Source: Halomonas sp.
GTDB lineage: Bacteria; Pseudomonadota; Gammaproteobacteria; Pseudomonadales; Halomonadaceae
Direction of reading: 5' to 3'
Assembly: GCA_020201095.1 (NCBI GenBank)
Contig: JAIVHM010000164.1
Coordinates: forward strand, 9,660-50,522
DNA length: 40,863 nt
Made by a program: the position numbers and the translations under genes. The notes below the pieces were generated by a model. The model searched no databases, had not been told where the DNA came from, and saw only the letters and a program-made list of their open reading frames with translations. Position 1 is the first letter of the stretch. Every line of letters starts with the position of its first letter. Below, piece after piece: positions 26,424 to 40,863 of the stretch.

Positions 26424-27208
26424 GCACGACCGCCACCCCGCCACAGTCAGCCAACTGGCAGGCAAGCGTCGCGCATGCGTTTTCCCGCGCGGCCCCGCGT
26501 TACGACGCCCTGGCAGGCGCCCAGCGGCATATCGGCGACACCCTTTGGAGCACCTTACCTGGCAGGGCAAGCCAAGTGCTGGATCTTGGCTGCGGCACCG
26601 GTTACTGGACACATCGATTAGCCCAGCGTTACCCCGACGCCCAGCTAACGGGGCTGGATATTGCGCCCGGCATGCTCGCCCAAGCCCAGGCGTGCTATGG
26701 GCCCCGCATTCGTTGGCAACTGGGTAATGCCGAGGCGCTCCCCTTTGCCGCAGAAAGGTTTGATCTGGTGTTTTCCAACCTGGCGATTCAGTGGTGCCGC
26801 GATATTGGCATGGTGATGAACGAACTCCAGCGGGTACTTGCACGCGGGGGCCAGGCGCACCTCACGACGCTACTGCCCGGCACGCTGGTTGAGGTCGCCC
26901 ATGCCTGGCAGCGCCCGGAGGCGCTATTGCAGACACCCGACCGGAATGAACTGGTGCGCGCCATCGAGCACAGCGGGCTGACGCCTATTCATCAGCATGC
27001 CGAGCGGCGCACCTTCCACTACCCCGACCTGAACGCCGTGATGGCCTCCATCAAGGGCGTCGGCGCTCAGGTCTCAAGGCCCCACGCCCGGCGGCTGACG
27101 CGTCGCGAGCTGCAGACTGCCCGCGAGCGTTTTGAAACGCTGCGTGAGCCCCAAGGCCTGCCCCTCAGCTACCAGTGTCTTACCCTGCACCTGGAAAAAC
27201 CGTTATGA
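26420..27208 (+). CDS. bioC: Malonyl-ACP O-methyltransferase
   Basis: AFSRAAPRYDALAGAQRHIG, VLDLGCGTGYWT, FDLVFSNLAIQWCRD. Confidence 0.94.
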   Translation: MSTTATPPQSANWQASVAHAFSRAAPRYDALAGAQRHIGDTLWSTLPGRASQVLDLGCGTGYWTHRLAQRYPDAQLTGLDIAPGMLAQAQACYGPRIRWQLGNAEALPFAAERFDLVFSNLAIQWCRDIGMVMNELQRVLARGGQAHLTTLLPGTLVEVAHAWQRPEALLQTPDRNELVRAIEHSGLTPIHQHAERRTFHYPDLNAVMASIKGVGAQVSRPHARRLTRRELQTARERFETLREPQGLPLSYQCLTLHLEKPL

Positions 27209-27842
27209 ACACATTCTTTGTTACTGGCACTGACACCGATGCGGGCAAAACGCTGGTGACCAGCACCCTGCTCGCGACTGCCAGCGCGCAAGGGCTTACC
27301 ACGCTGGGCTTGAAGCCGGTCGGCCGCCCGTCAGTTACGCAACGGTCAATCCCTGGGCGTTCGAGCCCGCCATTGCGCCGCACTTGGCCGCAAGCGAGGC
27401 GGGGCAAGCGCTTAAGGTTAGCGACATCGTGGCAACACTTGGCGCGACCCTTGCGCAAACGCAACGAGACCTGACCCTGATCGAAGGCGCGGGCGGCTGG
27501 CGGGTACCGCTCAACGACCGCGAGGATTTTTGCGCTATTCCCCGCCTCATGCGCCTGCCGGTGATTCTGGTGGTCGGCCTGAAGCTGGGCTGTCTTAACC
27601 ATGCCAGACTCACCGCCGAGGCCATTCTCGCCGACGGCCTGACGCTTGCGGGCTGGGTGGGCAGCGTGGTCGACCCGGCGTTTGCCGCTGAGTCGAACCG
27701 CTTTGCTGCCAACCTTGACGTGCTCAAGCGAACCTTACCGGCTCCCTGCCTGGGCGTTATCCCGCAACTCGCACAGCCGTCGCCGGAAACCGCACAGCTT
27801 TACCTTTGCCTGCCGCCGTTACGCACACTGGAGACCCTATGA
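27205..27842 (+). pseudogene. bioD: Dethiobiotin synthase, disrupted by an internal out-of-frame deletion near 27325
   Basis: Frame A: MNTFFVTGTDTDAGKTLVTSTLL...GLKPV (P-loop); then frame B: PVSYATVNPWAFEPAIAPHLAASEAGQAL...LIEGAGGWRVPL...LPVILVVGLKLGCLNHA...PLRTLETL ending at 27842. Confidence 0.9.
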
Positions 27843-29671
27843 CCTCGCCTGTCTGGCATCCCTATGCCGATCTCAAACATCAAACGCCGGCGCCCAAGGT
27901 GGTGGGCGGTGACGGCGCTCACTTTGTACTTGAGAGCGGTGAACGCCTGCTGGATGCCACCTGCTCCTGGTGGTGCATGATTCACGGCTACGCCCACCCG
28001 CGCCTGGTGGCGGCCATTCGCGAGCAGGCCGGTGAGCTGTGCCACGTGATGCTCGGCGGCCTCACCCACGAGCCCGCCGATCGCCTGGCGCGCGAGCTGG
28101 TGCGCATCACCCCCGCTGGGCTTAACCACGTGTTCTATTCCGACAGCGGCTCGGTGGGCATGGAAGTGGCGATGAAAATGGCCTTGCAGTATCAGGTGCT
28201 CACCGGCAACCCCGGCAAGCGCAAGATGCTATCGCTGATGAAGGCCTATCACGGCGACACCACCGGCTGCATGGCGGTGTGCGACCCGGAAGAAGGCATG
28301 CACGGTCTGTTTACAGGCCTGCTGCCCCAGCACCATTTTGCCCCGGCACCCAACGCCCCTTATGACGCCACTGCTGAGCAGGTCGAACACGATCTTAGCG
28401 CCCTGCGTGAGGTGCTTGAACGCCACCATGATGAGATCGCCGCGCTTCTGATGGAGCCGCTTTTACAGGCCGCGGGCGGGCTCAATATGACCTCGCCGGA
28501 CTATATACTGGGTGCCAGGGCACTGTGCGATGAGTTTGGCGTACTGCTGATTTTCGACGAAGTGGCCACCGGCTTTGGCCGCACCGGCAAGCTGTTTGCC
28601 GCCGACCACGCGGGGGTTACGCCGGATATCATGGTGCTCTCCAAAGGCTTGACCGGCGGTTATCTAGGCCATGCCGCGACGCTTGCCACGGATCGCGTTC
28701 ACGACGCCTTTATCGGCGACAGCGAGCACCACGCCTTTATGCACGGGCCGACATTTATGGGCAACCCGCTGGCTTGTCGCGTGGCGCTTGAAAGCCTGCG
28801 GGTGTTCGAGGAAGAGGATTACCTTGGCAAGATCACAACGCTTAACCAATTACTGCGCCGCGAGCTTCTGGATGACCGGGCGCTCAACGCGCACCCAGCC
28901 GTGGCTGATGTTCGCGTACTTGGCGCTACAGCGGTGATTGAAGCGCACGCCGCAGAAGAACTGAAAGGCGTGGCAAGCTTCGCCCGCGAACGCGGCGTCT
29001 GGCTGCGCCCCATCGGCCGCTGGCTGTATACCATGCCCGCCTACATTACTTCCGAAACGGAGATGGTGAAGATTACTGACGTTATGAAGGCATGGTTTTT
29101 CGAAAGCTCAAGGCAGCATCAAATTACCCTGCTTGCGCCACTGGTTGACCAGCGCGGGGACGCCTTCGCCGGCGGTGGTGTTAATGGCCACTACCAGGAA
29201 AAAATCCGCTTGGCCTGCGATCTCGCAGGCGTCTTCAAACAGCGGTACCGATTCACCAAACCAGACAACGTCCGGGCGCAGTTGGCTGCCCTTATCGCAG
29301 ATATCTCCCAGCTCAATACCGCCTTTGGGAAGTGGATAACGCAGCCGGGGATCCACTGTAGAACGCGCTTTAAGGATTTCACCGTGCAGGTGCAAGACGT
29401 GGCGCGACCCTGCCCGCTCATGCAGATCATCAATGTTTTGGGTAATCACGCTGACCTTGAAGCCCTCCTGCTCAAGCGCAGCCAGCGCTTTATGGGCCGC
29501 ATTGGGCTTGGCGCGACGAATCTGATCTCGGCGCTGATTATAAAACCCCAGTACCCGCTCGGGATCGTGCCGCCAGCCTTCCGGCGTCGCCACCTCCTCT
29601 ACCGGGTGCTCTTCCCACAGGCCGTCACTGGCGCGAAAGGTTTTTATCCCGCTCTCGACGCTGATACCTGA
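27839..29671 (+). CDS. bioA: Adenosylmethionine-8-amino-7-oxononanoate transaminase; only codons to about 29115 look like BioA, the rest reads antisense through cobB
   Basis: WHPYADLKHQTP, LLDATCSWWCMIHGYAHPRL, FYSDSGSVGMEVAMKMALQY, LIFDEVATGFGRTGKLFA, GPTFMGNPLACRVAL, GVWLRPIGRWLYTMPAYI. No stop where BioA homologs end. Confidence 0.88.
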   Translation: MTSPVWHPYADLKHQTPAPKVVGGDGAHFVLESGERLLDATCSWWCMIHGYAHPRLVAAIREQAGELCHVMLGGLTHEPADRLARELVRITPAGLNHVFYSDSGSVGMEVAMKMALQYQVLTGNPGKRKMLSLMKAYHGDTTGCMAVCDPEEGMHGLFTGLLPQHHFAPAPNAPYDATAEQVEHDLSALREVLERHHDEIAALLMEPLLQAAGGLNMTSPDYILGARALCDEFGVLLIFDEVATGFGRTGKLFAADHAGVTPDIMVLSKGLTGGYLGHAATLATDRVHDAFIGDSEHHAFMHGPTFMGNPLACRVALESLRVFEEEDYLGKITTLNQLLRRELLDDRALNAHPAVADVRVLGATAVIEAHAAEELKGVASFARERGVWLRPIGRWLYTMPAYITSETEMVKITDVMKAWFFESSRQHQITLLAPLVDQRGDAFAGGGVNGHYQEKIRLACDLAGVFKQRYRFTKPDNVRAQLAALIADISQLNTAFGKWITQPGIHCRTRFKDFTVQVQDVARPCPLMQIINVLGNHADLEALLLKRSQRFMGRIGLGATNLISALIIKPQYPLGIVPPAFRRRHLLYRVLFPQAVTGAKGFYPALDADT

Positions 29672-29707
29672 ACCGGTGAATACCACCAAGTGTGGGGCGT
29701 CTGCCAT
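29108..29707 (-). CDS. cobB: NAD-dependent protein deacylase (CobB-type sirtuin) with an apparent in-frame deletion removing the GTS..VYPA segment
   Basis: VVFTGSGISVESGIKTFR, TQNIDDLHERAGS, VLHLHGE, RPDVVWFGE; QADFFLVV is joined directly to AINTTAGEGVPALVNQW. Confidence 0.85.
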   Translation of the reverse strand: MADAPHLVVFTGSGISVESGIKTFRASDGLWEEHPVEEVATPEGWRHDPERVLGFYNQRRDQIRRAKPNAAHKALAALEQEGFKVSVITQNIDDLHERAGSRHVLHLHGEILKARSTVDPRLRYPLPKGGIELGDICDKGSQLRPDVVWFGESVPLFEDACEIAGQADFFLVVAINTTAGEGVPALVNQWRKQGNLMLP

Positions 29708-29740: not shown

Positions 29741-31492
29741 CTAATATACCAGCTGGCCCACGGTACCCGCGAAACGCTGCTTGTTACGATACGGGTAGAC
29801 ATCAATCACCCGACCATCGCGAATGGCTTTTTGTACCTCCAGCCAGTAGTCAGGGTCGAAGAGCTCGGGGTGCTGCTCCATGAATATGTCGCGCAGCGTT
29901 TTATTGGCAAACATGAAAGGGCCAAATTCCTCGGGGAAAATATCGTTGGGGCCTATCGACATACTCGAGGCATCGACGCCCTGGCCTTTTGGCATGTGCC
30001 GAAACCGGCACTCGGTGATGTAGCACACCTCGTCGTAATCGTAAAAAATCACCCGGCCGTGGCGGGTAACGCCAAAATTCTTGAGCAACATATCGCCAGG
30101 GAAAATATTCGCCGCCGCCATTTGCTTGATGGCGTTGCCATAATCCTTGAGCACCGTGGCCCGCTCGGTCTCGCTGCACTGCTCAAGGTAAATATTCAGC
30201 GGCGTCATCATCCGCTCGGTGTAGCAATGTTTGATGATCACCTTGTCGTCTTTAAGCGAGACAATTGAAGGGGCCACCTCGAGAAGATGCGCCAGACACT
30301 CGGGCTCAAAGTGATCCTTGCGAACGGTAAAATTGGAGAATTCCTGGGTATCCGCCATGCGCCCTACCCGGTCGTGGCGCTTCACCAGCCGGTACTTTTC
30401 GCGCACCACGGCGTGGGTCACATCCTTGGCCGGGTCGAATTTATCCTTGATGATCTTGAACACGGTGCGAAAGCTCGGCAGCACAAACACCGCCATCACC
30501 ATGCCACGCACGCCAGGTGCAATAATGAACTTGTCCTCGCGCTTGGCAACCTGTTGGTTCAAGGCACGGAAAAACTCGGTCTTGCCGTGCTTGAAAAAGC
30601 CGATCGCGGCATACAGCTCGCCTTCCGGCTTATGCGGCATCAGCTGTTTCAAGTAGTCGACAAACTCGCCGGGCACCGGTACGTCGACCTGAAAGTAGGC
30701 CCGCGTGAAGGAGAAAATAATTGATACCTCGTCGGTCTCGGTGAGCACCGTATCCAGATGCAGGCAAGGGTCGCCGCCCTGCTCCTCGCCAAAGCCTTCG
30801 CCATGCAAAATCGGTAGAACCAGCGACACCTGCTCACCGCCGCCCAGAATCCGCCCCACAAGATAAGCGCCTTTGTTGCGATAGAAGACACTTTTCAAAA
30901 GCTCTATCTGGGCATCATCGGCCTGTAAGATGGCGGCAGGCAGCTGCGCTTCGAGAAGCGCCGTCCCAAGCCCGACATCACGCTCCAGGTCGGCAAATGG
31001 GTTATCGAACGGGGCTTCTTCCAGCGCCCACCTCAGGGCACTTGGCCAGTCCCCATTGACCGAGCAGCGACGGCACAACTCAATGCCCGAGCGATGCGCG
31101 GCATCTTCGCGCGAGCTGTACACGAACATCCATTCATTGCGGATATGACGGTGTTGAAAAATCGAGCAAAACAGTGAGTTAAAAAAGGTTTCGGCCAGCT
31201 CGTAATCGAGCCGCTTGCTGATCAGTTCCGCATAGTGGTGGCGCGCTTCGCCCCAGGTCTCGCAGTGGGCCAGCACGTCTTGGGGGAAGGTACGCTGCAG
31301 GCGCCCCAGGGTGTCATCCACCTTTTCGCCATAGAGGTTGATACGCGCCGCGGATGCCTGCTGGGCGTCGCGCCAAGCCGCCTCGCGGAAGCGGCGACTG
31401 GCATCGAAAGTAATCTGTTTGAAGCGCGCACGGTACTCGTCAAAGCCGTGCAGAATGGTGGCCGCTAGGCGATACGCGGGAGAAAGTTTCAC
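29741..31492 (-). CDS. aceK: Isocitrate dehydrogenase kinase/phosphatase
   Basis: 583 aa, near the E. coli length; GVRGMVMAVFVLPSFRTVFKIIKDKFDPAKDVT, IKHCYTERMMTPLNIYLE, VIFYDYDEVCYITECRFR. Confidence 0.96.
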   Translation of the reverse strand: MKLSPAYRLAATILHGFDEYRARFKQITFDASRRFREAAWRDAQQASAARINLYGEKVDDTLGRLQRTFPQDVLAHCETWGEARHHYAELISKRLDYELAETFFNSLFCSIFQHRHIRNEWMFVYSSREDAAHRSGIELCRRCSVNGDWPSALRWALEEAPFDNPFADLERDVGLGTALLEAQLPAAILQADDAQIELLKSVFYRNKGAYLVGRILGGGEQVSLVLPILHGEGFGEEQGGDPCLHLDTVLTETDEVSIIFSFTRAYFQVDVPVPGEFVDYLKQLMPHKPEGELYAAIGFFKHGKTEFFRALNQQVAKREDKFIIAPGVRGMVMAVFVLPSFRTVFKIIKDKFDPAKDVTHAVVREKYRLVKRHDRVGRMADTQEFSNFTVRKDHFEPECLAHLLEVAPSIVSLKDDKVIIKHCYTERMMTPLNIYLEQCSETERATVLKDYGNAIKQMAAANIFPGDMLLKNFGVTRHGRVIFYDYDEVCYITECRFRHMPKGQGVDASSMSIGPNDIFPEEFGPFMFANKTLRDIFMEQHPELFDPDYWLEVQKAIRDGRVIDVYPYRNKQRFAGTVGQLVY

Positions 31493-31588
31493 AGGCTGGC
31501 CTCCAGTCGATTTTAACTAGCGTTACCCAACGGCAAACACCATGCAAGACGACATTGGTGGACGGGGTATCGCGCCAGGTATCGACGC

Positions 31589-32719
31589 TTACCAGTCAGC
31601 CAGCTTACCCATCGCATTGCTGGGCAGGGTATCGCCGTAGTCTACCCGAACGGGGCGTTCGGCGGCAGGCCACCGCGATATGGCTTGAGTGATCGCATCG
31701 GCGGCTTCCTGCTCGCTGCCTCGGGGCACCACAAACGCCTTCAAGCGACATTGATTGGTCGAGCCTGTAGTGCGTATCGCACAGTCAACAACGCTATCCA
31801 GCGACTTTAGCCGTTGGGCCACGTGCTGTGGGTTTACATTGACCCCACCAATGACAACCACATCGTCATGACGACCAAGTAGCGTAAAGGTCGTTTCATC
31901 GTGCCAACGCGTGTTATCCAGCAGTGGAGTGACCATGCCCCCCTGAACACGCTCCAAGTGATGCGCATCGTGGCGCTGCCAGTGGCCAAGTAGCTGATAG
32001 TCAGCGTCTCGCCGCCAGCGGGTAGCAACACCACCGGTTTCCGTACTGCCGTAAATATCCAGTAACCCGGTTAGCCCCCGGGCGATCAATGCATCCGACG
32101 TAGCAACCGATAAAGGCGCGGTAGACGACACGCCCATTATGCCTTCAGGCCATTCCTTTACTGACCTGGCCAAATAGTCCCAACGCGGCGGCACGGTGAC
32201 CAACAAATCGCCGGACGATAAGGGAGGTAAGGTCGTTGTTTCCACGCTCAGGCGGGGGATATTCAGGGTACCAGGCAACGCCACACCCAGCATGAAACCG
32301 TACAGATGATGCAACGGCAGCCAGCTGACCACGCGTTGTATCGGCATCAGCGTTGCAAAACGGTGGGCCAAGGCATGCGCCTCGGCTTCGATATCTTCCC
32401 AGCGGTGTAAATGAGGGGTGGGGGTTCCCGTGCTTCCCGATGTTCGAAACGTCACCCCAGACGTGTCGGCGACAGCATCCACAACTAAAGCGGCCCAATC
32501 ATCGACGCTTTGCGTCATTAACAGGCGGTCTTCGACGCCTTTCTCATGCAGACAAAAGAATTCATTGACGCAGGCGGCCAGGTGCAGTCTTTCGAGAGAA
32601 TCAATACTCGGTGAATATTGCCAGTCTGGCGCAGGCGCTCCGCGATAGGCCGCCAGTTCGGCGCTCAGCAATGACTTAAGGACCGCTTTACCATCGGCTT
32701 CGCTCAGCCACTGAGGCAT
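31589..32719 (-). CDS. Small AMP-forming acyl-CoA ligase, probable p-coumaroyl:CoA ligase for the PYP chromophore
   Basis: 376 aa; TFRTSGSTGTPTPHLHRWEDIE (AMP-binding P-loop), LDIYGSTETGG, C-terminal LPSNAMGKLADW; directly downstream of pyp on the same strand. Substrate is inferred from context. Confidence 0.78.
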   Translation of the reverse strand: MPQWLSEADGKAVLKSLLSAELAAYRGAPAPDWQYSPSIDSLERLHLAACVNEFFCLHEKGVEDRLLMTQSVDDWAALVVDAVADTSGVTFRTSGSTGTPTPHLHRWEDIEAEAHALAHRFATLMPIQRVVSWLPLHHLYGFMLGVALPGTLNIPRLSVETTTLPPLSSGDLLVTVPPRWDYLARSVKEWPEGIMGVSSTAPLSVATSDALIARGLTGLLDIYGSTETGGVATRWRRDADYQLLGHWQRHDAHHLERVQGGMVTPLLDNTRWHDETTFTLLGRHDDVVVIGGVNVNPQHVAQRLKSLDSVVDCAIRTTGSTNQCRLKAFVVPRGSEQEAADAITQAISRWPAAERPVRVDYGDTLPSNAMGKLADW

Positions 32720-32809
32720 CTGATTATCCTTAATGACACCAACACATCATTTGTAAATGCACAAAGCCGCTCACTCATGTTAACCGAAGAGCAAACGGCC
32801 GCAGGGGGG

Positions 32810-33193
32810 TTACAGACGCTTAACGAAAATCCAGTACGTATCACCTGAAATGGCTTTCTTCATGTGCACTTTTACTTTGGTGGGCGTCATCTTATAATCG
32901 AAGACGTATTCAAACATGGTGTTCAGATCACCACTTTTGACGCCTTCTTTAAAGCGGCCCTGGAATTCCTTGCTTTGCGTGCAGGGTGCAACGTCAGTAA
33001 AGAAGTTCTTGCCGATAACGCTTTTGGGATCTCGCCCCGTTATGCCGCCTTCTGCTGCGTTGTATTGAATAATTTTACCGTTGGCATCTAGTTGGATTGC
33101 TCCAAAGGCCAACTCATCCAGCTTTTTATCGTCCATCTTGGCAAGCGAGTTTTCGATATCATCGCCACCAAACTTAACCATTTCCATCGCCAT
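32810..33193 (-). CDS. pyp: Photoactive yellow protein (PAS-fold blue-light photoreceptor)
   Basis: Near full-length resemblance to Halorhodospira halophila [50 protein letters not shown]...[38 protein letters not shown]42, E46, T50, R52 and C69 equivalents present. RBS GAGGAG 8 nt before the ATG at 33193. Confidence 0.96.
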
Positions 33194-33245
33194 TACCACA
33201 TCTCCTCAGCAAAATAGACTGCTAATGTTGTTATCTTTCAAAATC

Positions 33246-33270
33246 TTTACAAACGTACAATATCTGTAAA
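33246..33270. promoter_or_regulatory. Inverted repeat TTTACA-N13-TGTAAA in the pyp upstream region
   Basis: TTTACAAACGTACAATATCTGTAAA, 25 bp, in the AT-rich 150-bp intergenic region upstream of pyp; function unknown. Confidence 0.3.
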
Positions 33271-33344
33271 AGCAATCTCAAATTAGCAGCATCGATCAGG
33301 TAAGGCAATCAACTCATACAAATGGATGAGATCCGTTTAATACT

Positions 33345-33848
33345 TTACGAATGTTTGAGTAATGCATCCAGCTTAGTCACCCGCAAGCAGAAAGGGCCGG
33401 CAGTGCGGTCGGCAATCAAAAACCCCACCTGGGTAATATCCGCTGGTTTGATAGGCGGTGCGTCGGTCAGCAGTGTGCCTCGGCGGACGGCCTCAAAATC
33501 TTCCCATGAAAAGCTCAGGGTTTCCCAACTATCCTGGGCAGGGGTAAATTTCACTCGGTAAGCGGAAGCATCACCAAGGGAAGTGCTTTTAAGACGCAGT
33601 TGATAGGTGCGGCCATCGCCGCACACGGTTAGCGTGATGCCTTGGGCATCCGCTAGCGTTGCTTCAAAATCGTGGGGCTCGCGACGAACGGAAGCAAAGC
33701 CACCGCCGTTTTCCAGCGATACCTCGCCATGAAAGCGCCCCATACCGTCAATAACACCGAACTGGCTCCGGGATTGGCCGCCCATCACGCCATCATCGAC
33801 GGCGTACCAGCGCGGCTGTTCATTGGGATCATTAAAGGTCAGCGTCAT
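33345..33848 (-). CDS. CIA30 family protein (complex I intermediate-associated protein 30-like)
   Basis: WYAVDDGVMGGQSRSQF, GFASVRRE, YRVKFTPAQDSWETLSFSWEDFEAVRRGT, ITQVGFLIADRTAGPFCLRV; ATG at 33848. Confidence 0.83.
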   Translation of the reverse strand: MTLTFNDPNEQPRWYAVDDGVMGGQSRSQFGVIDGMGRFHGEVSLENGGGFASVRREPHDFEATLADAQGITLTVCGDGRTYQLRLKSTSLGDASAYRVKFTPAQDSWETLSFSWEDFEAVRRGTLLTDAPPIKPADITQVGFLIADRTAGPFCLRVTKLDALLKHS

Positions 33849-33880
33849 AAGACCACCTCGCAACGGCTCATAAATACATT

Positions 33881-33946: not shown

Positions 33947-35151
33947 TTATAGCTTGGCGGCGGCGGCCGATGCGGGTTCGCTCTCATCTAGCTCCTCAGG
34001 TGAAGCGGACACCAGCGCAAACTCCTCCTCGGCGGTTTTTGCGACCAGATGATGTTGACTGTAGAGGAAGTAGTAGGCTGCCCCGGCAATAAACAGCACG
34101 ATAGTGTAGTTAAACGCGCGGGGATCGAAGGCGTATACACCTGTGAGCGCCACCAGCGAGAGCACTAATGCAATGCCCGAGGTGACTACGCCGCCCGGCG
34201 TTTTATACGGGCGCGGCAGGTCGGGCTGTTTTACCCGCAGCATAATGTGGCTCAACGCCATCAGTGCATAGGAGATAGTGGCACCGACCACGGCCATGCC
34301 CAGCATGAGATCGCCCTCACCGCTGAGTGACACCAAAAAACCAAACACACCGGGGACAATCAGCGCTAGATAAGGCACTTTGCGTTCGCTGGTCAGCGAT
34401 AGCGATTTCGGTATATAGCCCGCACGGGAAAGTGCGAATACCAGACGGCTATAGCCGTAGATAATCGAAAAGAAAGAAGCAATCAGCCCGGCCAGGCCCA
34501 GCACGTTAACCAAGGTGGCAAGCATGGGGTTACCCGCCGCATTCAGCGCATCCACAAGCGGCACGCCGCTTTGACCAATCATTTCAGCCCCCGCCGCACC
34601 GGCGAGCAGTACCACGACTAACAAGGCGGTGAACAGCAGAAACAGCATCGCGCCGATAATGCCTTTGGGCATATCCCGCGCCGGGTCTTTGGCTTCTTCC
34701 GCGGCCAGCGGCACGCCTTCCACCGCCAGGAACAGCCACATGCCGAAGGGAAGCGCCGCCCAAATCCCGTACCAGCCAAACGGCATAAAAGCGCTCGCAC
34801 CTGCGGCATCGGTGGGGGCGATATCAAACAGGTTGGCGGCGTCAAAACTACCGATCAATGCCACGGCGGTGGCAATAATGGCAAACACCGCCAGGCCACT
34901 AATCACCATCATGACTTTTAGCGCTTCCCCTACGCCTGCCAAGTGAATGCCGATAAACACGGCGTAAAACAGCAGGTACACCAGCGGGCCATTAATGCCC
35001 AGTAACGACTCCACCGCCGCCCCGATAAAAATCACAATCGCCGCTGGGGCCAGGGCGTATTCGATCAATACCGCAAGCCCCGTCAGATAACCACCGGCCG
35101 GCCCCATTGCCTTGCCAGATACGCTTGATCAACGGATGGTTGTGTCATCAT
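33947..35151 (-). pseudogene. eat: Ethanolamine permease (APC superfamily), disrupted by an out-of-frame deletion near 35108
   Basis: Main frame GPAGGYLTGLAVLIEYALAPAAIVIFIGAAVESL... lacks the N-terminal helices; a separate frame begins at 35151 with RBS GAGGG and MMTQPSVDQAYLARQ, then stops at 35083. Confidence 0.82.
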
Positions 35152-37735: not shown

Positions 37736-38713
37736 TTGATCATGGACTCGTCTGGCAGTGCTCGCGCACCAAAAAGATGCATTCAGGAAGCGTTTGATGC
37801 TGATGAGCACGCCAGCAACCTGACGCGCTGGCAACAGCAATACGACCAGTTAAGCCCTGGCCGATTTTATGGTCGGCTGGATGAAATCGAGCTGACCGGT
37901 ATGCAGGTGTTTAAAGAGCACACCGGCCAAGCGCTGCGCCAGGACTGCTGCGTTTGGCCCAACTCGCTGTGGATTGGCATACCGCCATTAACGCAAGGGT
38001 CGCGCATTAACGGGCAGTCGCTGAATGTCGATGAGGTCATGTGTCGGCCAGGCGGCCACGACTTTGAGCTCGTCACTCCAGACGCGTTTGATATTTACGG
38101 TTTGGTGGTTGACCTGCCCACGCTGAGCGCTGCTGCAGCGCAGCAGGGGATTACGCTGGACGAACGATGGCAGCAAGTACCCCGCCGCCATGTGCCACAT
38201 AACACCCTGAGTGCCGTTACGTTTTTGCTAGAAAGGCTATTGGTTAAACCGACGGGTGCAGTTGCCGAACAGCTGCATCAAGATATTTTTTTGATGGCCC
38301 TGCTTGAGTTACTTCAGGCCGAAAAGCCTTGCCAGGAAGCACCACCCAGCTATGCACACCGAAAAGAAGTCGTCGACCGCGTGAAGCGCTACGTCGACGA
38401 GCATTTGGAAGGGCCGGTCACCATGGAGGCGCTGTGTGAACTGACCCATGTTAGCCGGCGCACGCTGCAGTACAGCTTCACCACCATTCTTGGCATTAGC
38501 CCGCTACAGTTTTTACGCCTAACGCGGCTGAATCGCGTGCGTCGGGCGCTAAGAGCAGCATCACCGGAGCAGTCGGTCACCGACATTGCCACCTATTGGG
38601 GATTCTGGCATCTGGGCCAGTTCGCCCACGACTATAAGCAGCAGTTTGGTGAGTGCCCCTCACAAACGTTGAGCGCCAACCAGCCAGCGGTCAGCAAATT
38701 GGTCGGCGGGTAG
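37736..38713 (+). CDS. eutR: AraC-family transcriptional regulator, EutR-type, divergent from eutBC
   Basis: C-terminal AraC HTH (MEALCELTHVSRRTLQYSFTTILGISPLQFLRLTRLNRVRRALR ... VTDIATYWGFWHLGQFAHDYKQQFGECPSQTL); adjacent and divergent to eutB. Confidence 0.88.
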   Translation: MIMDSSGSARAPKRCIQEAFDADEHASNLTRWQQQYDQLSPGRFYGRLDEIELTGMQVFKEHTGQALRQDCCVWPNSLWIGIPPLTQGSRINGQSLNVDEVMCRPGGHDFELVTPDAFDIYGLVVDLPTLSAAAAQQGITLDERWQQVPRRHVPHNTLSAVTFLLERLLVKPTGAVAEQLHQDIFLMALLELLQAEKPCQEAPPSYAHRKEVVDRVKRYVDEHLEGPVTMEALCELTHVSRRTLQYSFTTILGISPLQFLRLTRLNRVRRALRAASPEQSVTDIATYWGFWHLGQFAHDYKQQFGECPSQTLSANQPAVSKLVGG

Positions 38714-40863
38714 CGGCCGGTCAAAATAGTAGCCTTGCGCCTGGGTACACCCCATCGCAACTAGCGCTTCTGCCTGGGAAGCATGTTCAATGCCTTCCGC
38801 GATCGTTTCGAGCCCCAAGGTGGTCGCCATGGCAATAATTGTCTCGACAATAACGCGGTCATTGTCACTGGTGAGCATGTCACGGACGAACGAGATATCA
38901 ATTTTGATTTTATCGGCGGCAAAGCGCTTTAAATAGGCCAGCGACGAATACCCTGTGCCAAAGTCATCAATGGCCAACCCCAATCCTTTCTCTTTCAGAG
39001 TTTTGGTCATGGCAATGGCTTTTTCGGGATTCACCATGATACCGCTTTCGGTGATTTCCAGGCTGAGCATTGAGGCTGCCACCTGAAACTGCTGACAGTA
39101 GTCCAATAGTGACGTTACCAAGTCGCCGTCTTCAAACTGGTCGGCCGCAATATTGATCGCCAACTGCCCCGGTAGCCGCAGGCCCTGTTGGTGCCATTGC
39201 GCCAATTGCCGACAGGCTTCCTCAATCACCCAGTTGCCCAGCGCCACTATCATGCCGCGCTCTTCGGCAATGGGAATAAACTTGCTGGGCGAGACGACAC
39301 CTAACTCCTCGTCGTGCCAACGGCATAGCGCTTCAGCGCCAATTAACTGCCCGTTGCGAAGGTCGATTTGAGGCTGAAAATGCAGACGCAGCTTTTTTTC
39401 TGTGATGGCAATGGAAAGACGTTTGGCGATCTGCAACTGCTCAGCGACTTCGCACTCCATCCAGGGCTCAAAGACACACACGGCTAACTTCTGGCGTTTG
39501 GCCTGATACATGGCAATATCGGCACTTTTCAGAAGATCCAAAGGCGTTGTCGCATGCCGGGGGTAGAGCGAGATACCGACGCTGACCGCGAGTTCAAAGG
39601 ATTGCTGGTGAATGCTGAAAGGATATTCGATGCACTCACACAATCGCCGGGCATTTGCCAGTGCATCGGCCTCATTGCGAGCAGGACAGACCACAACAAA
39701 TTCATCACCGCCCAACCGCGCCAGATACTCGTTGTTCATCAATGATGCCGCCAAGCGACTTGCCACCTCTTTAAGAACGAGATCCCCCAGATCGTGCCCG
39801 GCGGTGTCATTAATCTCTTTGAAATGGTTAAGGTCCAGAATTAACAGTGCCAAGCCCGGGGTCGGCGTGTCGGTGAGCACATGCTTTAAGTGGCGCATGA
39901 ACGCCGCTCGGTTGGGCAATTGCGTACCCGCATCACTGAAGGCCAGTTGCCTTATACGGTTTTCATCTTGCTGTCGTTCCAGCTCTGAGGCTGCCCGGGC
40001 TGCAAATATCTGCAGCACATTACGCACAATATCCACATCGGCCAATGGCTCTTTAAACATCACACCAATCAGCCCCATAGGCTGGCCATGGCTGTTATCT
40101 AACCGCCTCCCTACGTAACCGTTTACCCAACTAAGTGCCCCGTTCGCTTCATCGGGAAGCATCATGGCGGCATCGTTATAAACAATGCACTCCCGTTCGA
40201 ACATCACCTTGTGGCAAGGCACGCCGGGCAAGTAGTAGGCAAAATTATCCTGTAACTGGCCTTCTATGTAGAGCGTTAATGTACAAGCGAAATCAGTATC
40301 TTGTTCGTCCAGCAGCGCAATAAACCCGACGTCTGCCGATAAGGCTTCGGCCATGTGCACCGTGAGTTGATGAAGAAACGCCTCGCCATTGCTGGCCGAG
40401 ACAGCCGTCGCAATTCTTGTTACCGCATGCTGGATACGTGCTTCTGCTTGTTGTTGACGACGGCTATAAATCCCTAATGATACTTCACTAGCCAACTCTT
40501 CCAACAACTGTGTTTCATCGGCATCCAGCCTATCCGGCTGTCTATGATAGAGCGTCATAACGCCGTACTGTTTATCGGCATACTGAAGCGGCAAAGCAAC
40601 AATCTGTCCGGCACCCAACACACTGAGGGCCTGATTAACACCCGAGGGCAAGGTTTCATCATTGGGGCGTTCAATGACAACAGGGCGTTTAAGTTGCAGG
40701 GCTCTTTCGGCTAGCCCCTGGCAGTAACGTGAAATAAAAAGCTGGGCAGGGCTCAACCAGGAAGCGGCCTCACCATCTTCATCCGCCATTGCCTCTATGG
40801 ATAAAGTATCGTCTGATTCAGCATCAGGCGTTAACGCGGTAATCCAAGCACCAGCGTACCCGC
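38660..40863 (-). CDS. GAF-containing GGDEF-EAL protein (putative diguanylate cyclase/phosphodiesterase), 5' end beyond the window
   Basis: RLGGDEFVVV, GAEALCRWHDEELG, LAIDDFGTGYSSLAYLKRFAADKIKID; N-terminal GAF-like regions. The frame stays open from the 40789 ATG to the window edge (GYAGAWITALTPDAESDDTLSIEA-M). Confidence 0.92.
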   Translation of the reverse strand, partial: GYAGAWITALTPDAESDDTLSIEAMADEDGEAASWLSPAQLFISRYCQGLAERALQLKRPVVIERPNDETLPSGVNQALSVLGAGQIVALPLQYADKQYGVMTLYHRQPDRLDADETQLLEELASEVSLGIYSRRQQQAEARIQHAVTRIATAVSASNGEAFLHQLTVHMAEALSADVGFIALLDEQDTDFACTLTLYIEGQLQDNFAYYLPGVPCHKVMFERECIVYNDAAMMLPDEANGALSWVNGYVGRRLDNSHGQPMGLIGVMFKEPLADVDIVRNVLQIFAARAASELERQQDENRIRQLAFSDAGTQLPNRAAFMRHLKHVLTDTPTPGLALLILDLNHFKEINDTAGHDLGDLVLKEVASRLAASLMNNEYLARLGGDEFVVVCPARNEADALANARRLCECIEYPFSIHQQSFELAVSVGISLYPRHATTPLDLLKSADIAMYQAKRQKLAVCVFEPWMECEVAEQLQIAKRLSIAITEKKLRLHFQPQIDLRNGQLIGAEALCRWHDEELGVVSPSKFIPIAEERGMIVALGNWVIEEACRQLAQWHQQGLRLPGQLAINIAADQFEDGDLVTSLLDYCQQFQVAASMLSLEITESGIMVNPEKAIAMTKTLKEKGLGLAIDDFGTGYSSLAYLKRFAADKIKIDISFVRDMLTSDNDRVIVETIIAMATTLGLETIAEGIEHASQAEALVAMGCTQAQGYYFDRPLPADQFADRWLVGAQRL

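Follow-up and report, generated by a model that had tools for sequence, protein, structure and literature searches.

A photoactive yellow protein locus without tal in Halomonas and a candidate aryl-polyene source for its chromophore

The window analyzed here, a stretch of 40,863 nucleotides from Halomonas sp., carries the gene for a photoactive yellow protein (PYP) followed by a ligase gene (pcl), and the tyrosine ammonia-lyase gene (tal) that usually takes third place is missing. Judging from sequence comparisons, we consider it an even proposition that the p-coumarate chromophore of this PYP is supplied by the lyase of an aryl-polyene (APE) pigment cluster, following the loss of tal from the pyp operon. 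By this proposal, tal would have been lost from between pcl and aceK in the lineage of the window, and the APE-cluster lyase would make p-coumarate in an unlinked pigment pathway. The p-coumaroyl:CoA ligase (pCL) would then intercept this product for PYP, activating it as p-coumaroyl-CoA for attachment to Cys69, and the resulting holoprotein would act as a blue-light photoreceptor and might signal in response to light. The features on which the analysis draws are as follows.

29741-31492, minus strand: aceK, isocitrate dehydrogenase kinase/phosphatase, the downstream boundary of the locus (NF002804, 735 bits)
31493-31588, minus strand: pcl-aceK junction without tal, aceK leader retained (by-eye junction comparison and synteny)
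31589-32719, minus strand: pcl, p-coumaroyl:CoA ligase of the short pyp-associated type, 376 aa (TIGR02372 and context)
32810-33193, minus strand: pyp, photoactive yellow protein, 127 aa (TIGR02373, PDB matches, and chromophore-pocket residues)
33194-33344, minus strand: leader upstream of pyp (consensus scan)
33345-33863, minus strand: CIA30-domain protein (PF08547, E 2e-43; start taken from the relative G056)
Contig C178 of the same genome (G000), 352-1902, outside the window and unlinked: APE lyase (PF00221)

The pyp-pcl pair and its surroundings

The PYP locus belongs, without being exceptional, to a family already known. In a profile search the pyp product scores 213.2 bits (E 9e-64) against TIGR02373 (photo_yellow), for which the curated equivalog cut-off is 143.05 bits, and a PDB search returned chains of Halorhodospira halophila PYP at E ~1e-64. 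The two proteins are 78.4% identical, and their alignment reveals that the pocket residues Y42, E46, T50, R52, and C69 are all kept, as are P68, A67, F62, I31, and M100. The original prediction had called this ORF a true PYP with equivalents of the five pocket residues and had proposed a search against a PYP-specific model; the TIGR02373 score, the PDB matches, and the alignment agree with that reading. The same score and pocket residues rule out a generic PAS domain. Translation begins at an ATG at position 33193, preceded by a good Shine-Dalgarno sequence (AGGAG) at a spacing of 8 nt.

Downstream on the same strand, across a gap of 90 nt as previously described, pcl encodes a protein with the ANL motifs TSGSTG and YGSTET and the C-terminal GK. 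This protein matches TIGR02372 (4-coumarate-CoA ligase; 311.8 bits, E 5e-93) far better than any other family, the runner-up reaching only 47 bits. The score lies below the curated TIGR02372 cut-off of 334.7, as does that of every other pyp-adjacent ligase in the genus (294-330 bits), so the low score lies with the model and does not mark a doubtful gene. We label pcl by its context and best match, namely its adjacency to pyp, its ANL core motifs, and its best family, and do not file it as a strict TIGR02372 equivalog. In each of the 23 genus genomes that carry PYP, pyp and pcl are adjacent, which, like the best family match, fits the p-coumaroyl:CoA ligase role that had been proposed for this gene.

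In 18 of these 23 genomes, the pair sits within a conserved block with the order eutR (divergent), eutB, eutC, eat, CIA30, pyp, pcl, (tal), aceK, usually followed downstream of aceK by sir2 and bioA; eat is not called in every syntenic genome. In 18/18 syntenic genomes, the next gene upstream of pyp, in the same orientation, is that for the CIA30-domain protein, although this placement does not imply a functional tie to PYP. The CIA30-pyp-pcl genes are set off from eat by a strong terminator-like hairpin at 33919-33890. The promoter and terminator scan of the locus revealed no terminator-like element between pyp and pcl, nor any such hairpin between the CIA30 gene and pcl. A consensus scan of the leader and locus found no sigma-70-like site on the pyp strand, a result that is not evidence of absence.

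PYP genes are found well beyond this locus. Matches to TIGR02373 are present in 23/82 genus genomes, where they exceed the cut-off, in 32/275 genomes of the family, and in 7/392 sampled genomes of the order and 6/369 of the class, where both of the latter counts include the genome of the window itself. Thus, the earlier description of PYP as rare does not hold for the genus. The description of the chromosome as Halomonas-like fares better, because the nearest named pyp loci are from Halomonas and Vreelandella, including V. boliviensis LC1. Several unusual arrangements also came to light. Vreelandella massiliensis (G026) has a second PYP gene (L115, 10160-10537) that has no adjacent pcl and is located beside response-regulator-like genes. 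In G895 (L190, 6710-8317), PYP forms the C-terminal part of a longer protein with a membrane-like N-terminus and is followed by pcl; this genome also carries an aryl-polyene lyase. In genus g68 (L195 in G491, L196 in G452), pcl is divergent from pyp, and the five sampled PYP genomes (5/5) have no aromatic amino-acid lyase.

Absence of tal from the operon

Among the 18 syntenic genomes, tal occupies the position between pcl and aceK in 11 and is cleanly absent from seven, namely the window (G000), G044, G045, G046, G056, G066, and G069, in which aceK directly follows pcl. Contiguous pcl and tal genes also occur in three further contexts (G022, G026, and G039). The window, where aceK begins 96 nt after pcl, does not hold a complete pyp-pcl-tal operon. 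The original prediction of a compact pyp-ligase locus was therefore correct as to the pair and incomplete as to the locus, from whose usual third place tal is missing. A by-eye comparison of junctions without tal (G000, G056, G069, and G044) and with it (G018 and G016) indicates that tal-less genomes still have, in recognizable form, the aceK leader found after tal in tal-positive ones, which points to the removal of tal alone. In a tree of six neighboring proteins, the tal-less genomes occupy approximately five separate places: {window, G056}, G069, G044, G045, and {G046, G066}. Most likely, pyp-pcl-tal is the ancestral arrangement in the genus and the window is a tal-less derivative. A separate observation concerns G018, whose tal gene (L096, 11175-11705 and onward) is split by a frameshift that could reflect decay or a sequencing error, while its pyp and pcl genes are intact.

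Two other readings of the missing gene were weighed. The gap might be a deletion introduced during assembly, and some other genes of the window do look abbreviated: bioD, sir2, and eat (27181-27839, 29111-29707, and 33947-35125) are shorter than their G056 counterparts. The bioD gene has a frame change and lacks about 23 residues, sir2 lacks about 38 residues, and eat lacks its first 86, which suggests either small deletions in the assembly or real decay. However, the closest relative, G056, is assembled as one contig and shows this tal-less junction too, in near-identical sequence, which indicates that the loss in the window is real, and G069 and G044 are tal-less as well. We consider an assembly deletion very improbable. 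Slightly less remote, but still quite unlikely, is the idea that the locus is degenerating, such that PYP persists after tal loss as an apoprotein or in a role other than light sensing. Repeated loss or breakage of tal speaks for this idea; the intact pyp and pcl genes speak against it, as do the chromophore-pocket residues, all of which are kept in every tal-less genome of the genus.

The absence of tal from the operon of the window means that the source of p-coumarate must lie elsewhere. Among the 80 closest named pyp loci, a TAL-like lyase, recognized by motif only, is located within the fetched flanks in 29, and 42 loci with full flanks are without one. Published surveys place TAL adjacent to or inside the operon for only ~5-10% of pyp genes (PMC12826048, 2025; PMC9664959, 2022), and the 2025 survey counts tal in only ~5% of predicted pyp operons and leaves the origin of the chromophore open (PMC12826048). 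Unlinked enzymes or uptake have been proposed as the source of p-coumarate (PMC12826048, PMC9664959). The word Halomonas is absent from the main texts of both papers.

Candidate sources of p-coumarate

A PF00221 search of the genome of the window returned a single match, the lyase on contig C178, and no HutH. This result rules out an operon-type TAL elsewhere in the genome as assembled, which is ~90% complete, and another TAL could sit in the missing part. The neighbors of the C178 lyase gene encode an AMP-ligase/ApeI-like dehydratase fusion, two ACPs, a ketosynthase, a glycosyltransferase, a lipid-acyltransferase-like protein, and an acyltransferase, and this gene group is an aryl-polyene cluster.

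The APE lyase carries the MIO triad Ala-Ser-Gly (GASGDLTP) and an NQD sequence that aligns with the Gln of TALs at motif 2, and the first residue of its Watts selectivity motif is not His (FH, which is HAL-like). In our lyase alignment, for which solved TAL, tyrosine aminomutase, and HAL sequences served as a cross-check, motif 1 reads His-Leu in operon TALs and Ser-His in HutH proteins, with Gln and Glu, respectively, at motif 2. APE lyases have Phe-His at motif 1 (Tyr-His in the distant G933) and, in 25/25 proteins examined, Gln at motif 2. A Gln at this second site distinguishes TAL and PAL from HAL (PMC3992019). Furthermore, FlxA, a lyase from the flexirubin cluster of Chitinophaga, is reported to combine a HAL-like motif 1 with the TAL/PAL residue at motif 2 and is a proven TAL with a ~1000-fold preference for Tyr over Phe (PMC3992019). 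Because FlxA is likewise HAL-like at motif 1, a leading His does not define all TALs. The motif 2 Gln, together with the FlxA precedent, suggests that the APE lyase in the genome of the window is probably a TAL, with a predicted specificity for Tyr.

The two lyases also exclude each other among PYP genomes of the family, an association that is suggestive rather than proven. In the family, the APE lyase is present in 0/18 PYP genomes with an operon-type TAL (next to pcl in 16, of which one is frameshifted, and on other contigs in two), whereas it is present in 8/14 without one (the window, G019, G044, G056, G069, G225, G228, and G234), which gives a Fisher p value of 0.0003 when shared ancestry is ignored. 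Against a background of 59/243 PYP-negative genomes of the family with an APE lyase, the tal-less PYP genomes are enriched (p=0.011) and the tal-positive ones depleted (p=0.016), again ignoring ancestry. A Pagel test on an 18-tip tree gives a marginal p=0.04. In the tree, the sister pairs G044/G016 and (G000,G056)/G018 differ in the predicted direction. A missing tal with an APE lyase is seen again in the distant class-level genomes G895 and G933, and G736 and G768 have tal next to pcl and lack an APE lyase. The association is weakened by genus g15, where the APE lyase is widespread with or without PYP, and by G018, which is sister to {window, G056} and combines its frameshifted tal with the lack of an APE lyase. 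Because the genus data gave rise to the hypothesis, an independent check comes only from genomes of the wider family and the class.

Perhaps, then, a pigment enzyme doubles as the source of a photoreceptor chromophore, such that the APE lyase makes tal redundant, tal is lost, and light sensing becomes tied to a photoprotective pigment. We give this broader scenario slightly less than even weight. In the literature searched, from which subscription journals were mostly absent, we found no link between PYP and aryl polyenes beyond the citation of PYP as a bacterial 4CL precedent.

Other routes to p-coumarate must also be weighed. Both TAL and APE lyase are missing from six PYP genomes of the family (G040, G045, G046, G066, G216, and G220), and also from G279 and 5/5 sampled genomes of g68, an order-level genus, all of which carry pyp and pcl. 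The PYP pockets are intact in the examined genomes lacking both lyases, except for Y42F in G220. Such genomes need scavenged p-coumarate or an unrecognized enzyme, and whichever source they use could serve the window too. It is conceivable that environmental p-coumarate from plant or algal phenolics is taken up, in which case pCL alone suffices and the co-occurrence with the APE cluster is incidental. Uptake has been raised as a possibility (PMC12826048), and several of the lyase-free, tal-less PYP genomes that keep pcl and intact pockets are complete or near-complete, but scavenging leaves unexplained the split in APE lyase occurrence between genomes with and without an operon-type TAL. For the window, we regard it as a serious but rather unlikely alternative. 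We attach considerably lower odds to HutH or another unrecognized enzyme as the provider in tal-less genomes. G046, G066, and G279 do carry lyases of the HutH type only, yet the motif 2 residue of HutH is the HAL-type Glu, and the window's own genome yields no HutH match. The APE lyase thus stays our preferred source for the window, at the even odds stated at the outset.

Signaling output and relation to known PYP systems

The original prediction described the output of PYP in non-phototrophic halophiles as unresolved, and in agreement with this, the conserved neighborhood (eut, CIA30, and aceK) contains no plausible signaling partner. Output through a neighbor in the window can be dismissed because the conserved block has no signaling genes. 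On the far side of the eut genes, at a distance of ~5.5 kb, there is a GAF-GGDEF-EAL gene (38660-40861), and many syntenic relatives have other genes in its place. Elsewhere in the family, signaling genes follow pyp-pcl(-tal): MCP, CheB, CheR, and CheA genes in G026, those for an MCP and a GGDEF-EAL protein in G022, those for a GGDEF response regulator and a hybrid kinase in G040, and those for GGDEF-EAL proteins in G216. An output through phototaxis or c-di-GMP is plausible in the family group, and the same might apply to the window.

The locus resembles that of H. halophila in that pyp is followed by pcl on the same strand and the chromophore pockets are identical. In contrast to the pyp-pcl-tal order of H. 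halophila (PMC12826048), the window lacks tal, belongs to a non-phototrophic lineage, and has eut/CIA30 and aceK as flanks. With V. boliviensis LC1 (L205) and other members of the genus it shares the block eutBC-CIA30-pyp-pcl-...-aceK; unlike the window, V. boliviensis LC1 has kept tal, located between pcl and aceK, and its genome carries no APE lyase. Idiomarina loihiensis, whose PYP is reported to be involved in light-regulated biofilm formation (PMC12826048), is likewise a non-phototrophic gammaproteobacterium with a single-domain PYP. However, pyp in the window has no adjacent GGDEF/EAL gene, and the nearest one is kept in only some relatives. The parallel with FlxA/FlxY of Chitinophaga pinensis and with APE clusters resides in the pairing of a polyene-cluster lyase with a ligase for a p-coumaroyl starter, and FlxA and the APE lyase in the genome of the window have the same combination of a HAL-like motif 1 and a motif 2 Gln. 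The product of FlxA serves a pigment, whereas that of the APE lyase might also be shared with PYP.

The window and its relatives offer a concrete candidate answer to the question of chromophore source for one group of organisms, namely the aryl-polyene cluster, and close pairs with and without tal in the genus differ in the direction that this answer predicts. Family members in which pyp-pcl(-tal) lies beside chemotaxis or c-di-GMP genes provide a lead to the output. The missing tal and the likely aryl-polyene source set the locus of the window apart as a variant of known PYP loci.
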